Below, one piece after another: positions 1,158 through 20,439 of a DNA stretch of 20,654 nucleotides. The stretch is taken from the IMG/VR virus record IMGVR_UViG_3300043540_000753, positions 1-20,654 of that record; one strand, given 5' to 3'. The DNA is from a virus. The notes beneath the pieces are model-generated. The model was given only the letters and a program-made list of their open reading frames with translations. It did no database searches and was not told the origin of the DNA. The position numbers were made by a program, and so were the translations under genes. Every line of letters starts with the position of its first letter. Within the stretch, counting starts at the first letter, position 1.

Positions 1158-2012
1158 TCAGACGGTCAGGAGATATCGGTCCGTCAAGAAGGCCATATGG
1201 GGCACCAGCCATGACGGTCCTGCCTGGCCCGCCCACGCGGCCCACAGATCCGGATAGCTCATACAAGTGAACCGGACCTGGCAGCCAGCTACTGCCTCGG
1301 CAAACTTGGCCATCTCGTCACGGTGTTCCTGGAAAGGTCTAAACAGCCGCCAGTTCACTGGTTCCCAGAACAGATAGAGCAGCGTTACCTCCTCGTCCGG
1401 AAAGCAGGCTGCCAAACCCAGAGCGTGTTTGACCAGTTGCGGCGCATCGAGTCGTTTGAAAGCCTTCGGGTTTGTCCGGAGGGAGTCAATCAGCTTGAAA
1501 TACTCAGTTTGTGACCCAGGCCCCTGCAGCGAGTCATAGCTAATGGGGAAGTCGGTGTTGTGACCGTTTAAGTACTCGATGCATTTGGATTCGACTGCAA
1601 CCGATGCACCCTTCGATCCCTTCGCTAAAAGGTCGGGATGCGGAGGAGTGCCATTCAAACCCGTAGGGCACTTGGCTTCGAAATTCAGGCTGCGGAATCC
1701 GTTGTTGCCCGCGAGAGTGAGCCCCGGAAGTGTGGCTTTCCAGAGAGCGAAGGTGTTCACGACCAACGCGGCAGAGGAATGCGCAGCCTGCATCTTTGGC
1801 GGACAGTCTCTTCCGAGATGTCTTGTCCACTCCAGTTCTTTCCCAGCGCCGTGCGCAAAATCCTCTCGGTATAGTTCCTCTCCTATGTCGGTGAGGACGT
1901 TGTCTTCAACGTTTACCACGTAGTTCTGGTAGCCGTCGATCCAAGCTGCTTGAGGCCTGATTTGTCGTAGCCTCGCCGACAGCGCCGCGCCGCACCTTTC
2001 GTAAATGCTCAT
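1158..2012 (-). CDS. Putative PD-(D/E)XK nuclease, restriction-endonuclease-like (cargo gene)
   Basis: This 284-aa protein carries a recognisable nuclease core: Glu112 in FEAK, Pro126-Asp127 in HPDLL, Glu141-Ser-Lys143 in AVESK, and then QLVKHALGL (about 192-200), which fits the helix that often follows this motif. The arrangement resembles the PGN_0703-type putative restriction endonucleases; that family name is from memory. The start is well supported by GGAGGT five bases before the ATG. The gene is not needed for a virion. It sits between the tail chaperone and the tape measure, where lambda-like phages normally have nothing, and its base composition looks less GC-rich than its neighbours. 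A 97-bp AT-richer leader precedes it. It was probably acquired horizontally and may act in defence or inter-phage competition. Substrate and partners are not visible. Confidence 0.6.
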   Translation of the reverse strand: MSIYERCGAALSARLRQIRPQAAWIDGYQNYVVNVEDNVLTDIGEELYREDFAHGAGKELEWTRHLGRDCPPKMQAAHSSAALVVNTFALWKATLPGLTLAGNNGFRSLNFEAKCPTGLNGTPPHPDLLAKGSKGASVAVESKCIEYLNGHNTDFPISYDSLQGPGSQTEYFKLIDSLRTNPKAFKRLDAPQLVKHALGLAACFPDEEVTLLYLFWEPVNWRLFRPFQEHRDEMAKFAEAVAGCQVRFTCMSYPDLWAAWAGQAGPSWLVPHMAFLTDRYLLTV

Positions 2013-5493: not shown

Positions 5494-5970
5494 CTAGAAC
5501 GTGTGGACGCGGTAGGCCACTTTGACCTTGAGCAGCGCGTCGTTGGCAGCGTTTCCGGTGAACTCGCCCGCACCCAGGTTGTGCAGCACCAACGGCTGGT
5601 TCTCGGCTACGGTCCGTGCGGTGATCGGATCGAGCTTCGCCAGCCCGTACGTGATCTGGTCCGCGGCCTGGTCGATGAAGCCGGTCGTCTCGATGGTCTG
5701 CGAGACTTGGACGCTCGATCCGTCCTTGTATCTGACGGCCAGGTTCGCCGTCGCCTCGGCCAGCACGTTCGTCCCGGCCTTCAGCATCACGACCGCCGAC
5801 AGGAACTCCAGCATCTTGCCGGTGCCCGGCGCCGGCACCAGCGTTTTCGGCGTCGCGCGGAGAGCCTTGATGTCCGCGTTCGACAGCAGGACATCGGCGT
5901 ACCGCAGGTCGCTGGTGCCCTGCGACAGCAACGGAGCAGCGAACTTGCCTTTAACTTTTTGCGCGCCCAT
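5494..5970 (-). CDS. Structural-region protein of unknown function (158 aa)
   Basis: A 158-aa protein between the capsid gene and the neck genes. The N-terminus is basic (MGAQKVKGKF). The middle looks like a beta-sandwich: LVPAPGTGKMLEFLSAVVML, then NLAVRYKDGSSVQVSQTIETTGFIDQ. The 'PAPG-GK-hydrophobic-VMLKAG' pattern suggests a virion surface or neck protein, but I do not recognise a named family. It overlaps the end of the 85-aa gene by 20 bases. By position it could be a second decoration protein, a head fibre, or part of the FI-region variation seen among lambda-like phages. Confidence 0.5.
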   Translation of the reverse strand: MGAQKVKGKFAAPLLSQGTSDLRYADVLLSNADIKALRATPKTLVPAPGTGKMLEFLSAVVMLKAGTNVLAEATANLAVRYKDGSSVQVSQTIETTGFIDQAADQITYGLAKLDPITARTVAENQPLVLHNLGAGEFTGNAANDALLKVKVAYRVHTF

Positions 5971-10777: not shown

Positions 10778-11212
10778 ATGGACACCGGAGAGAGCCGGTT
10801 CACACTCGAACTGAGAGTGAGATCGGCGTTGGAACAACGGCTCGGCACGGCCCTTGAAAAGAGGCGACTCGTTGTCGGCGTGGCAAGCGATGGCCGGCAG
10901 CGTCTGCACGAATTCGATGGCGTCTCGCCGGATTCCAAAACTGTTGTCGAAATCAAGACAAACGAACTCAAGGCTACCCAGGAGAAGCCAGACGGTCGCT
11001 ATTTCAGCGCGATAAAGTGGGCGCTCATCGGCGATCTATACATGCTCTCGAGGGTTCAAGCCGACACCAAGCTACTGGTTTTGACAGATCGTCCGCTTTT
11101 CGAGATATGCGCCCGCGACATGGACGGCCTTCTGCCACCCAACACGGATATCGTGTTTTGTGAAGGCAGGGAACCCGCTGCGCCGCAACTAACGCGCCAC
11201 CCTGCACAATAA
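10778..11212 (+). CDS. Small PD-(D/E)XK nuclease-like protein (cargo gene on opposite strand)
   Basis: A 144-aa protein with a compact nuclease core: Asp47 in HEFDGV and Glu58-Ile-Lys60 in TVVEIKT, separated by a short loop, the classic D-x(n)-ExK layout on two strands. A helix with conserved-looking charged residues precedes it (ELRVRSALEQRLGTALEKRR), and a strand (KLLVLTDRPLFEI) follows. The gene lies within the head module but on the opposite strand, between the gpW-like and portal genes, and has its own promoter. The base composition looks lower in GC than its surroundings. It is therefore a likely moron expressed independently of the late operon, perhaps from the prophage, and may act in defence. 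No methylase or toxin partner is adjacent. Confidence 0.6.
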   Translation: MDTGESRFTLELRVRSALEQRLGTALEKRRLVVGVASDGRQRLHEFDGVSPDSKTVVEIKTNELKATQEKPDGRYFSAIKWALIGDLYMLSRVQADTKLLVLTDRPLFEICARDMDGLLPPNTDIVFCEGREPAAPQLTRHPAQ

Positions 11213-15068: not shown

Positions 15069-15097
15069 GCCGCCCGCCTCGTGCCGGCGGCTTTTTT
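15069..15097 (+). terminator. Intrinsic terminator ending the plus-strand cassette
   Basis: A GCCGCC/GGCGGC stem is followed by six T. It ends at the last base of the convergent methyltransferase gene. The stem matches that of the terminator at 14409. There is no T run for the minus-strand direction. Confidence 0.8.
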
Positions 15098-16413
15098 CAT
15101 TCCCCTTCCACGTGGCCCACCGGCTCGGCCACCACCTCAATGCCAGCGTCAGCGAATGCGCGCCCGGACCCTTCTTGGGTCGCGCTCTCCCCGGTGAATG
15201 CCTGCCACCGGAGCACGGCCACGTCGCAGTACTTCGGGTCCAGTTCAACCACGCGCGCCTGGCGGTTGGTCTTCTCGCACGCGATGATCGTCGTCCCGCT
15301 GCCGCCGAACGGATCGAGGATCGTGTCGCGGGTCTTGCTGTTGTTGCGGATCGCGCGCTCCACCAGCTCCACCGGCTTCATGGTGGGATGTTCACGGTTG
15401 GCGGCGGGCCGCTTGATCATCCAGGCGTCGCCCTGGTTGCGGTCGCCGCACCAGAAGTGGGTTGTGCCCTCGCGCCACCCGTACAGAATCGGTTCGTACT
15501 GGCGGCGGTAGTCTCCCCAGCCCAATGTGAAGTGGTTCTTCACCCAGATCAAGAAGGTAGACCAATGCCCGCCCGCCTCCGTAAACGCCTGGTGGAGCGT
15601 GTGCAACTCCGACGAGGACATGCAGATGTAGATTGCGCCCTTGGTCACGGCCAGCATGTTGGCCGAGGCGTCCCGCAGGAAGTCGAAGAACTTGCTCCCG
15701 AGCTTGTCGTTCTGGATCTTGAGCTTCTTTTCGGTCCTGCCCTGGTAGTTGATGTTGTAGGGCGGATCGGTGAAGACCATGTCGGCCAAGCCGCCGGCCA
15801 TGACCTTTTCGATATCGGCCATCTGCGTGGCATCGCCGCACAGCAACCGGTGCTGGCCCAGCAACCAGACGTCGCCCGGCGCCGTGATGGCGCGCTCCGG
15901 CTCCTCCGGGACCGCGTCGTCGTCCGTCAGGCCGTCGCGCGAGTCTTCGGTCAGAATGTCCTCGATCTCTTCGTCGGTGAAGCCGACCAGGTCGAGGTCG
16001 AAGGATTCCGCCTTGAGCGATTCCAATTCCACGCGCAACATCTCCTCGTCCCATCCGGCGCTCAGGGCCAGACGGTTGTCGGCGAGGATCAGCGCGCGCC
16101 GCTGCGTTTCGGAGAGGTGGTCCAGCACGATCACCGGGACCTCGTCCATCCCGAGTTTGCGCGCGGCTGCCAGGCGGGCGTGGCCGGCAATGATCACGCC
16201 GTCCGCGCCGGCCAGGATCGGATTGGTCCACCCGAACTCGACGATGCTGGCGGCGACCTGCGCCACCTGCTCCTCCGAGTGCGTCCGGGCGTTTCTGATG
16301 TAGGGAATCAGCTTATCGATCGGCCAGAATTGAACGGCGAGATCGTGGAAGCGCGGAGACGCACCGCCCACAGGGGCGACCTCCCGATTCTTGATGCGCG
16401 ATCTCGCCGTCAT
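15097..16413 (-). CDS. ParB-domain DNA methyltransferase with DPPY motif
   Basis: The 438-aa protein fuses an N-terminal ParB/Srx-like domain (about 27-155; GHARLAAARKLG at 77-88) to an N4/N6 amino-methyltransferase. The catalytic TDPPYN lies at 215-220 and the SAM-binding LDPFGGSGTT at 366-375, the beta-class order. DPPY is used by many adenine-N6 methyltransferases and some cytosine-N4 ones, so the base is not certain. Its role is probably to methylate phage DNA, hiding it from host restriction. It is the last gene of the modification operon, three bases after the 199-aa gene. Its ParB part is closely similar to that of the second methyltransferase, pointing to duplication. Confidence 0.88.
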   Translation of the reverse strand: MTARSRIKNREVAPVGGASPRFHDLAVQFWPIDKLIPYIRNARTHSEEQVAQVAASIVEFGWTNPILAGADGVIIAGHARLAAARKLGMDEVPVIVLDHLSETQRRALILADNRLALSAGWDEEMLRVELESLKAESFDLDLVGFTDEEIEDILTEDSRDGLTDDDAVPEEPERAITAPGDVWLLGQHRLLCGDATQMADIEKVMAGGLADMVFTDPPYNINYQGRTEKKLKIQNDKLGSKFFDFLRDASANMLAVTKGAIYICMSSSELHTLHQAFTEAGGHWSTFLIWVKNHFTLGWGDYRRQYEPILYGWREGTTHFWCGDRNQGDAWMIKRPAANREHPTMKPVELVERAIRNNSKTRDTILDPFGGSGTTIIACEKTNRQARVVELDPKYCDVAVLRWQAFTGESATQEGSGRAFADAGIEVVAEPVGHVEGE

Positions 16414-17067: not shown

Positions 17068-18627
17068 TTAGGACGCCTTTTGCTTGCGTCCGTAAAACGG
17101 ATTCGGGCCGTGGTGCTGGATGGCCCTCGAATCGGAGGCCCTGGGATTCAACGCCAGATTGACGTCCACGCCCCGCTTCTCCGCGACGGCTGTGAACGTC
17201 TCCGCGCCGTTCAGCGTCGGCATGTCGCCGGTGAGGTTGATCATCCGGCGTAAGATCACGTCGCAGTACCCCGGCGAGATCTCCGCGCCATATCCGCTCC
17301 GCCCCAGCACGTCCGCGGCAGCCATCGTGGTGCCGGAGCCCATAAATGGGTCGTACACCACGTCACCCGGGTCGCTGAACGCCAGCAGGAAGAACTCCAC
17401 CAGCGCGCGGGGAAACGGAGCGGAGTGCGATCCCTGGCTGCTCTCCGACTTGACCTCGATCACGTTGGACGGTCGCGCAACGCCTGCGAATCGACCGTTC
17501 GAATCCGACAGACTATTGCGCGACCGCTGCCAGGCATTCTGATTCTTGCCGCCATCCGCTGCTGCGCCACGCGGTCCAGTGCCCAGCAATCCACTTCCGG
17601 ACGTCGACTTCGGATTGCCCGGGCTGTAGTCGAAGCAATCCTCGGACTCGTGCCCCACCCGCTTCGGCCGGAATTTGATCTGCTGCTGGCGGCAGAAGTG
17701 AAACACCGGTTCCCAGGCGTTCTTGAAGCGGTTTCCCCAGCCGCCCGGCACGCCGTTGTCGGTCTTGCGCCAGCAGAATTCATCCACGAATCGCCAACCC
17801 CACTGCCGCCGGTGGGCGATGACGAGGTCCTTCACGTACAAGTCGCGCTCCCCGTCGCCAGCATGCTCCTTGATATTCAGGAAGAAGGAGCCATCTGGTG
17901 CCAGGATGGACTCGACTCCGGCCGCGACCGCGCCAAACCAGTCCACATACTGGTCCGGAGGGATCGGTTTGAAGCCGCTGGTGGCGTCGTACTCGCGCTG
18001 CGTCGCGTAGGGCGGCGACGTGACGACCACATTGGCCAGGACGCCGCCGAATAGAGCGCGAATCGTATTCCCGTCGCGGCAATCGCCGCAAATCAGGCGG
18101 TGACTGCCGATCCACCACACATCTCCTGGCCGGGTTACCGGCTGGGCTGGCGGTTCCGGGACGTCATCCTGCACATCCGGCGGCGGCGCTTCGTTATCGG
18201 CGAGCAATGCCTCCAGTTCGGAGTCGCTGAAGCCCACCAGCGCCAGGTCCATGCCCTCGGTTTCGAGTTCGCGGAGTTCGCTGGCCAGCACCTTCTCGTC
18301 CCACCCTGCGTTCATGGCGAGCCGGTTGTCCGCGATGATGTACGCCCGCCGCTGAGTCTCGCTGAGGTGGTCCAGCACCACCACCGGAACCTCGGCGAGA
18401 CCCAATTTGCGGGCAGCCAGGAGGCGACCGTGGCCGGCAATGATCCCATCCATGGAATCGACAAGGATCGGGTTGGTGAAGCCAAACTCCACGATGGACG
18501 CCGCTATCTGCGCGACCTGCTCTGGAGAGTGCGTCCTGGCGTTCCGCGCGTACGGCACCAGGCGGGCGGTCGGCCAGATCTCGATGCGCCGCGCCATGGC
18601 GGGCGTGATGGTCGCCGCTTCAGTCAT
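17068..18627 (-). CDS. ParB-domain DNA methyltransferase with SPPY motif
   Basis: The 519-aa protein carries a ParB-like domain (about 15-145) and an amino-methyltransferase domain with TSPPYATQ (203-210) and YDPFMGSGTTMAAAD (425-439). SPPY is typical of cytosine-N4 methyltransferases, unlike the DPPY of its neighbour, and it has a longer middle region (about 285-405) that would be the target recognition part. The start at 18627 is chosen because it forms an ATGA overlap with the queD stop; a longer frame reaches 18657 but would run into queD. The ParB parts of the two proteins share long stretches such as VLDHLSETQRRA, so they are paralogues. The shared operon with dpdA and queD suggests combined DNA protection. 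Confidence 0.88.
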   Translation of the reverse strand: MTEAATITPAMARRIEIWPTARLVPYARNARTHSPEQVAQIAASIVEFGFTNPILVDSMDGIIAGHGRLLAARKLGLAEVPVVVLDHLSETQRRAYIIADNRLAMNAGWDEKVLASELRELETEGMDLALVGFSDSELEALLADNEAPPPDVQDDVPEPPAQPVTRPGDVWWIGSHRLICGDCRDGNTIRALFGGVLANVVVTSPPYATQREYDATSGFKPIPPDQYVDWFGAVAAGVESILAPDGSFFLNIKEHAGDGERDLYVKDLVIAHRRQWGWRFVDEFCWRKTDNGVPGGWGNRFKNAWEPVFHFCRQQQIKFRPKRVGHESEDCFDYSPGNPKSTSGSGLLGTGPRGAAADGGKNQNAWQRSRNSLSDSNGRFAGVARPSNVIEVKSESSQGSHSAPFPRALVEFFLLAFSDPGDVVYDPFMGSGTTMAAADVLGRSGYGAEISPGYCDVILRRMINLTGDMPTLNGAETFTAVAEKRGVDVNLALNPRASDSRAIQHHGPNPFYGRKQKAS

Positions 18628-18992
18628 TGGCCCAGGCCCGGATCCTCGTACACGCATCCGGTCGTCGTGCTCTCCGCAACCTCGATCCGGAACAACTCCG
18701 GCAGATCCACCTTGATCTGTTCAAACAACCAAGGCGCCAGGATCTCGGTGGTCGGATTGCCCAAGCCGGGGATCTCGTTCAGGACGCGGTGGTCGATCCG
18801 GTCGATCACCGCGCCGACCTTCTCCGCGATCACCGAGTAGTCGACAATCATGCCCTGGATGCCGATTGCGCCACGGCACCACACGCGCACACGGTAGGTG
18901 TGGCCGTGCATCCGGCCGCACTTATGTCCGTCTGGAACGTGCGGCAACCAGTGCGCGGAGTCGAAATGGAAGTCCTTCCAGATGCTGATCAT
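18624..18992 (-). CDS. queD: 6-carboxy-tetrahydropterin synthase
   Basis: The 122-aa protein makes 6-carboxy-5,6,7,8-tetrahydropterin from dihydroneopterin triphosphate, an early step to the 7-deazaguanines preQ0 and preQ1. The family motifs are intact: FDSAHWLP with His14, the HKCGRMHGHTY block with catalytic Cys25 and zinc ligands His29 and His31, IDHRVLN with Asp67-His68, PTTEILAPWL with Glu83, and AEST with Glu107. The start at 18992 gives the usual family length and overlaps the dpdA stop as ATGA; an upstream frame to 19115 lies within dpdA. In this place it most likely supplies a DNA-modification precursor rather than tRNA queuosine. Confidence 0.92.
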   Translation of the reverse strand: MISIWKDFHFDSAHWLPHVPDGHKCGRMHGHTYRVRVWCRGAIGIQGMIVDYSVIAEKVGAVIDRIDHRVLNEIPGLGNPTTEILAPWLFEQIKVDLPELFRIEVAESTTTGCVYEDPGLGQ

Positions 18993-19714
18993 CCGAACAA
19001 CTCCTCTTGCCGCGGAATGCCCGCCCACACTGCCGCGCTGTTCGCGCCTTCGTAATGGTCGAGGAGCACCTGCGCCTTCACCGCATCGGAGCACTGCCTG
19101 TAACACCCGCCCCAATTCGTCGTGCCCACCCCACGCGACACGCCGGCAGAATCAGCGGAAGCCAAAGGCAGGAACTTACAGATGCCGGGCCGCAACATCC
19201 GGAGACCGTGAATCTTCGTGGTGGGCTTCCCGTCGCAGCACACCGCGCTCATGATCTCCTGCATGCGGCTCCACCACCGTGTGGTTCCGATGGTCGCGTA
19301 CTGTGCGCTCGAACCAAGCGCGACGCGCGGCCAGTCAGCCGCCAGGCGCTGCAACCGTTCCATGGGCTCATGGAAGTGCCACACCGGCACGCCCGCGAAC
19401 TTTCCGAACGGCCACTGCGCAAGGAGTTCGTCGTTGGCCGATTGGTCGCCGTCGATTACATCGGGGATCAACGCCCACTCGAAGCCGGGATGCCGATGCC
19501 ACTGCTCGACCCAGTCGTAGTAGGAACGCCAGTCGATGTCGACGCCTTGCTTCCACACCGAGAAGGCCCCGTTATCGAGTACAAACGACTGGGCGACTTC
19601 CGCAGCGATGGCGATCTGCTGCGGGTCCGCGAACGACACCAGTGCGTGGCGGCGCTTCCAGATCTCGACCGCGACCTGCCAGGTCGAATGCCTGCCTCCG
19701 TGGTAGTGGATCAC
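18989..19714 (-). CDS. dpdA: DpdA-like 7-deazaguanine DNA transglycosylase (TGT paralogue)
   Basis: The 241-aa protein resembles DpdA, a tRNA-guanine transglycosylase relative that swaps guanine in DNA for a 7-deazaguanine. In order it shows VLDNGAFSVW with Asp47 (compare DSGGF of TGT), ALIPDVIDGD with Asp85, VALGSS (131-136), KIHGLRML (167-174), and ASADSAGVSRG with Asp188 in the nucleophile position. The zinc site of tRNA-type TGT is not apparent, as expected for a DNA-acting enzyme. The start is a GTG at 19714, with an in-frame TGA nine bases upstream, so it cannot begin earlier. The stop overlaps queD by four bases. The family call rests on motif reading; the exact DpdA subgroup and the final base are unknown. 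Confidence 0.72.
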   Translation of the reverse strand: MIHYHGGRHSTWQVAVEIWKRRHALVSFADPQQIAIAAEVAQSFVLDNGAFSVWKQGVDIDWRSYYDWVEQWHRHPGFEWALIPDVIDGDQSANDELLAQWPFGKFAGVPVWHFHEPMERLQRLAADWPRVALGSSAQYATIGTTRWWSRMQEIMSAVCCDGKPTTKIHGLRMLRPGICKFLPLASADSAGVSRGVGTTNWGGCYRQCSDAVKAQVLLDHYEGANSAAVWAGIPRQEELFG

Positions 19715-20100: not shown

Positions 20101-20439
20101 TCAGGCCGCCGGTGCCATGCAGTCGAGCAGGACGCGCAGAAAGATCGACCGCACCTCGGGAGGGGCAAGCAGCGATTCAGCGTGCCCGCCTTGCAGCGGA
20201 CGGAGTTTCCAGCAGTGGTGGCCGTCGCTGAGCGGTTGCTCGAAGGAATAGCCAGTGCCCATGTACTGCCGGACCGTGGTCGGATGCGGATCGCCAGGAC
20301 GGCGATACAGGACTACGCGGTTGAGGTGCCCCTTGCGGCGCACCAACTTGGCGAGGCCGGCGTTCTCCAGCCGGAGCGCGCGCTTCTCATTGATGAAATC
20401 GAGGAGGGCACAATCATACGAGTAGAGCGGAATGGACAT
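20101..20439 (-). CDS. Hypothetical protein (112 aa)
   Basis: A 112-aa basic protein with no recognised family. It begins MSIPLYSYDCALLDFINEKRALRLENAG, continues with LAKLVRRKGHLNRVVLYRRPG, then has a segment RQYMGTGYSFEQPL and a C-terminal helix (PPEVRSIFLRVLLDCM). The middle resembles small phage early proteins. GGTGA lies four bases before the ATG at 20439. It is the first complete gene of the minus-strand block in this window and is followed at once by the zinc-ribbon gene. Confidence 0.55.
   Translation of the reverse strand: MSIPLYSYDCALLDFINEKRALRLENAGLAKLVRRKGHLNRVVLYRRPGDPHPTTVRQYMGTGYSFEQPLSDGHHCWKLRPLQGGHAESLLAPPEVRSIFLRVLLDCMAPAA

Follow-up and report, generated by a model that had tools for sequence, protein, structure and literature searches.

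A compact phage DpdA encoded with QueD, and the changing 7-deazaguanine supply genes beside its relatives

The window analysed here is the whole of viral record IMGVR_UViG_3300043540_000753, a linear, incomplete record of 20,654 bases (20.6 kb). Its genes for terminase, portal, protease and major head protein match families of phage head and packaging proteins, and the terminases are lambda-like (TerL in phrog_15, TerS in phrog_57), which fits the lambda-type label given in an earlier reading of the letters (hereafter the sequence-only reading). The genes of interest are collected in Table 1. As that reading had described, two of them overlap: the dpdA stop codon TGA (18991-18989) and the queD start codon ATG (18992-18990) have the 4 nt ATGA in common. 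The queD ribosome-binding site lies approximately 8 nt 5' of the queD start, in dpdA codons for QEELFG, a stretch that is almost invariant among queD-carrying relatives of dpdA, although AlphaFold2 has low confidence in the C-terminal residues of the protein. The conservation of QEELFG, together with the internal AGGAG, is compatible with coupled translation of dpdA and queD. The GTG start of dpdA is supported by near relatives, which begin at the same residue (MIHYHGG).

Table 1. Features of the dpdA-queD operon in the window.
Feature	Coordinates	Strand	Evidence
Compact DpdA-like DNA guanine transglycosylase, 241 aa, GTG start	18989..19714	-	phrog_887 E 3.9e-69; CAjan and 7-11 DpdA in same PHROG; AlphaFold2 barrel, pLDDT 90.9
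QueD, 6-carboxytetrahydropterin synthase, 122 aa	18624..18992	-	TIGR03367 above cut-off; PF01242 E 2.4e-30; PDB 4ntm E 1.6e-34
ATGA, dpdA stop/queD start overlap	18989..18992	-	Sequence
AGGAG, queD ribosome-binding site within dpdA C-terminal codons	19001..19005	-	Sequence and conservation in relatives
DNA methyltransferase fused to ParB-N domain	17068..18657	-	PF01555 E 2.7e-36, PF02195, phrog_498
Second DNA methyltransferase with ParB-N domain, DPPY motif	15097..16413	-	PF01555 E 3.2e-26; phrog_498 E 3.8e-160

The fused methyltransferase gene, whose start overlaps the end of queD, is in one operon with dpdA-queD, and the order dpdA-queD-methyltransferase-methyltransferase is seen again in two other loci of the family, L005 and L008. 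One of the two window methyltransferases carries a DPPY and the other an SPPY motif, with a 199-aa gene of no known function between them. The gene at 20101-20439 (-) is kept upstream of dpdA in L005, L007 and L008; its product and that of 10778-11212 (+) gave no significant family match in Pfam or PHROG. Amid the tail and structural genes, 1158-2012 (-) encodes a 284-aa protein that matches PF22558 (restriction endonuclease associated with ARP).

By equivalog score (90.8 bits against the NCBIfam cut-off of 89.25) and by its Cys, His, Asp and Glu residues, the 18624-18992 product is QueD, and its structural match, 4ntm, is the E. coli enzyme. The motifs that the sequence-only reading had called intact are indeed all present (the C25/H29/H31 motif, H14, D67/H68 and E107), and zinc-binding and catalytic roles are assigned to these residues in QueD. 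Elsewhere in the family, in the QueD of L005 (2570-2923), a tyrosine takes the place of the zinc histidine in the SAH motif (AAYYLP). The QueD-like proteins at L150:3699-4091, L153:3735-4097 and L080:3603-4001 adjoin a compact DpdA and are without the CxxxHGH cysteine, and may have another product or no activity.

The 241-aa protein shares phrog_887 with CAjan DpdA (E 8.2e-96) and 7-11 DpdA (E 7.7e-74). It is 39% identical over 186 aa to the 234-aa 7-11 DpdA and 25% identical over 162 aa to CAjan DpdA by BLASTP (E 7e-9), and profile comparison with the latter gives 97.3% probability (E 2.5e-11). It also matches SEN1 DpdA, itself a match to MED16 DpdA at 54%. Relatives are encoded by at least 589 viral contigs and at least 137 phage records, so the reading frame is not a chance one. 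One 1.7-kb record labelled Staphylococcus phage (OR850331.1) scores against the query just as Salmonella phage dpdA genes do, at equal identity, and is possibly mislabelled. The profile search that had been suggested as a check on the DpdA assignment thus comes out in its favour, and the assignment of the 18989-19714 product as a phage DpdA of phrog_887, of the CAjan/7-11 type, is supported. No direct sequence link to TGT was found: the protein has no sequence match in Pfam (PF01702 included), NCBIfam, PADLOC or the PDB, no solved TGT is among the PDB sequence matches, and hhalign with a cellular TGT was not significant.

AlphaFold2, run with 50 homologues, predicts a (beta/alpha)8 barrel of 8 strands alternating with helices (mean pLDDT 90.9, pTM 0.88). 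The sequence-only reading had named such a barrel, with its aspartates together, as the structural expectation, and the prediction is confident, with the aspartates at or just past strand ends. In the model, D47 closes strand 3, D85 lies just after strand 4, H113 closes strand 5, G134/S135 close strand 6, H169 is within strand 7 and D188 within strand 8. The ordered motifs LDNGAF, PDVIDGD, GLRML and SADS, picked out by eye at the outset, proved real: D47, D85, D188 and H169-G-L-R-M-L are invariant in an alignment of 50 sequences (47-83% identity), as are H113 and G134/S135 in the compact-family alignment. D47, D188 and H169 align with CAjan DpdA; D85 is constant throughout the compact family, and in CAjan the nearest aspartate lies 3 residues further on.

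The proposed comparison with TGT and DpdA folds was borne out in part. Foldseek matches in the viral library (BFVD) include phage queuine tRNA-ribosyltransferases, whereas the top 50 in the PDB are generic TIM barrels with no TGT among them, the best being tryptophan synthase alpha barrels at a TM of approximately 0.5. The link to TGT therefore comes through the DpdA relatives and through published HHpred results for MED16 DpdA, which place it in the same fold class as tRNA transglycosylases (PMC8306585).

We then collected compact-family loci from viral contigs and scanned their neighbourhoods for FolE, QueD, QueE, QueC and YhhQ, counting as a partner any supply gene within 1.5 kb of dpdA on the same strand; most directly abut it. 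A 7-deazaguanine supply gene lies beside dpdA in 93 of 210 distinct loci, nearly always for one step only, although this is a biased sample whose search seeds included known partner-bearing members, so that percentages are not prevalences. The partners in these 93 loci are YhhQ-like (60), QueD (26), QueE (4), QueC+QueE (1), QueC+YhhQ (1) and FolE (1), the sole FolE-partnered locus being a CAjan relative. The QueC of L028, the locus with both QueC and QueE, scores above its family cut-off, and the radical SAM partners are best matched by QueE models with scores below the QueE cut-offs. Among six YhhQ-like transporters examined, five pass the Pfam Vut_1 cut-off (L111 does not); since they fall below NCBIfam transporter cut-offs, their substrate is presumed. 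In the closest relatives of 7-11 DpdA, a YhhQ-like gene sits next to dpdA.

Because the locus counts are seed-biased, a tree and a control on whole records were added. A profile search of 50 whole records found QueD in 12, YhhQ-like proteins in 3, radical SAM proteins in 2, QueC in 1 and FolE in none, and every one of the genes found adjoins dpdA. Mapped onto a tree built from 136 representatives, partner state requires no fewer than 22 changes, where shuffling gives 48 on average; strongly supported branches force at least 5 changes for QueD, 7 for YhhQ and 2 for QueE, gains and losses counted together. The repeated change of partner is independent of the seed bias. The window dpdA falls in a strongly supported group of 10, in which QueD is present in 8 and absent in 2. 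In L004, a member of the window's clade without QueD, dpdA is followed (from approximately position 5900) by a 61-aa ORF and then by a radical SAM protein of phrog_9298, which is not QueE.

A scan of genome contigs returned one relative only (L014), in a MAG of Candidatus Sulfopaludibacter (Acidobacteriota). The host assignment is weak, as the L014 contig might be phage DNA that composition-based binning placed in the MAG; the window virus probably infects soil bacteria. The MAG has its own QueD, QueC and TGT, which fits a phage QueD that boosts flux rather than one that fills an absolute gap. Since usually one step only is carried by the phage, the rest of the pathway is presumably host-derived.

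We favour, with a probability of roughly 0.8, the reading that in DNA the compact DpdA replaces G by preQ0 or one of its derivatives, drawing on the host precursor pool and on one phage-encoded supply step. The barrel enzyme would exchange selected guanines, in the DNA of the phage (or of its host), for a 7-deazaguanine, most likely preQ0, with later conversion to ADG or another derivative possible. The host would make most of the precursor; QueD, which catalyses the second step from GTP to preQ0, would raise the flux during infection, and dpdA and queD would be translated together via the ATGA overlap. Together with the operon's two methyltransferases, the modified bases may protect the DNA from host nucleases. 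We infer the activity on DNA, the identity of the base, the boost in flux and the protection alike; for the first, family membership and the published phages point to DNA rather than tRNA. That the window phage replaces some of its guanines, as the sequence-only reading had it, is plausible, and the extent should not be assumed high because dADG is very low in 7-11 and MED16. Family profiles, fold and the repeated gene neighbourhood support both the assignment as DpdA and the functional tie to QueD that were drawn in that reading. That four supply routes recur beside one enzyme family speaks strongly, on genomic grounds, for compact DpdA using a 7-deazaguanine from the preQ0 pathway. Weighing against the favoured reading are the missing sequence similarity to TGT, the generic PDB fold matches, the incomplete window record, the two QueD-less members of its group, the little modification measured in 7-11 and MED16 and the slight protection of MED16 DNA.

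The shared fold class reported for MED16 DpdA would also suit an enzyme acting on tRNA or another RNA, with QueD raising queuosine in host or phage tRNA: in cells QueD serves the tRNA pathway, and public annotations of relatives read queuine tRNA-ribosyltransferase. We nevertheless consider this unlikely, as the protein belongs to the family of CAjan DpdA, a DNA modifier (PMC6884629), dADG is found in the DNA of the related phages 7-11 and MED16, and the likely host already has a TGT of its own; from its length, moreover, a 241-aa protein appears too short for the zinc-binding C-terminal part of TGT. A complete preQ0 pathway of the Hutinet group 1-2 kind, with FolE, QueD, QueE and QueC encoded together and QueD the only part inside this contig, might be suspected from the incompleteness of the linear window record and from L028, whose dpdA has two supply genes beside it. 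However, we found no QueC, QueE-like radical SAM protein or FolE in the QueD-bearing record G005 (48.4 kb) or in the other QueD-clade records searched, and regard this explanation as improbable.

It is more improbable still that the barrel protein performs no base exchange and is, for instance, a nicking enzyme or a DNA-binding antirestriction factor, with QueD as incidental cargo. That unrelated TIM barrels are the best PDB fold matches and that modification is very scarce in the relatives where it was measured (PMC6884629, PMC8306585) would agree with such a loss, but every candidate catalytic residue is invariant, and precursor genes of four kinds became dpdA neighbours several times.

Hutinet et al. 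(2019) found YhhQ not correlated with any phage group and left open whether many lone-dpdA phages modify their DNA at all. The repeated pairing with a single gene argues that lone compact DpdA enzymes do use 7-deazaguanine precursors, and suggests that phages may tune low-level DNA modification through one gene. More tentatively, and in our view at somewhat less than even odds, dpdA may be the fixed part of a plug-in module, to which each lineage adds whichever supply step limits preQ0 (importer, QueD, QueE or QueC), often exchanging it, so that the partner would report the bottleneck of the host. If so, hosts should lack, or be weak in, the queuosine-pathway step that the partner gene supplies, and QueD-like partners without the catalytic cysteine may supply a different base. 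In the literature searched, outside which most subscription journals lay, a dpdA accompanied by one changing partner is not described; the pairing of compact DpdA with one interchangeable supply gene appears undescribed so far.

Among known systems, bacterial and archaeal TGT share with the window protein the barrel fold class and, by inspection, a like order of aspartate motifs; the window protein is much shorter, without the zinc-site region and without a detectable sequence match. A distant fold similarity in BFVD is to a 464-aa protein of Vibrio phage nt-1, which may be its DpdA2. DpdA2 is without the conserved histidine (PMC6884629), whereas the window protein keeps H169, which is invariant. 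The DpdA of CAjan, a preQ0-inserting Escherichia phage (Seuratvirus), is closer: it modifies DNA, and its deletion abolishes dPreQ0 in virion DNA (PMC6884629). The two proteins belong to one PHROG and align through the LD[N/S]GAF, H-x-x-E, glycine, H-G/A and D-S motifs, and both genes are accompanied by 7-deazaguanine supply; they differ in size (306 aa in CAjan) and are only approximately 25% identical, and CAjan carries FolE, QueD, QueE, QueC and a putative preQ0 transporter, where only QueD is seen in the incomplete window record. Clearly homologous, and compact as well, are the singleton DpdA proteins of 7-11 (Salmonella) and MED16 (Pantoea), Hutinet group 3, the former in the same PHROG. 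Their DNA contains dADG at approximately 0.02% and 0.13% of G, respectively, which in MED16 hardly protects from restriction enzymes (PMC6884629, PMC8306585). Compact DpdA is therefore already known, with measured dADG, and the suggestion that 241 aa might define a new compact subgroup falls away beside the shorter 7-11 homologue. Both phages are described with dpdA and without a precursor gene, whereas the window dpdA is paired with queD. What appears new is this pairing with a single, interchangeable supply gene; the enzyme family and its compact size were known before.
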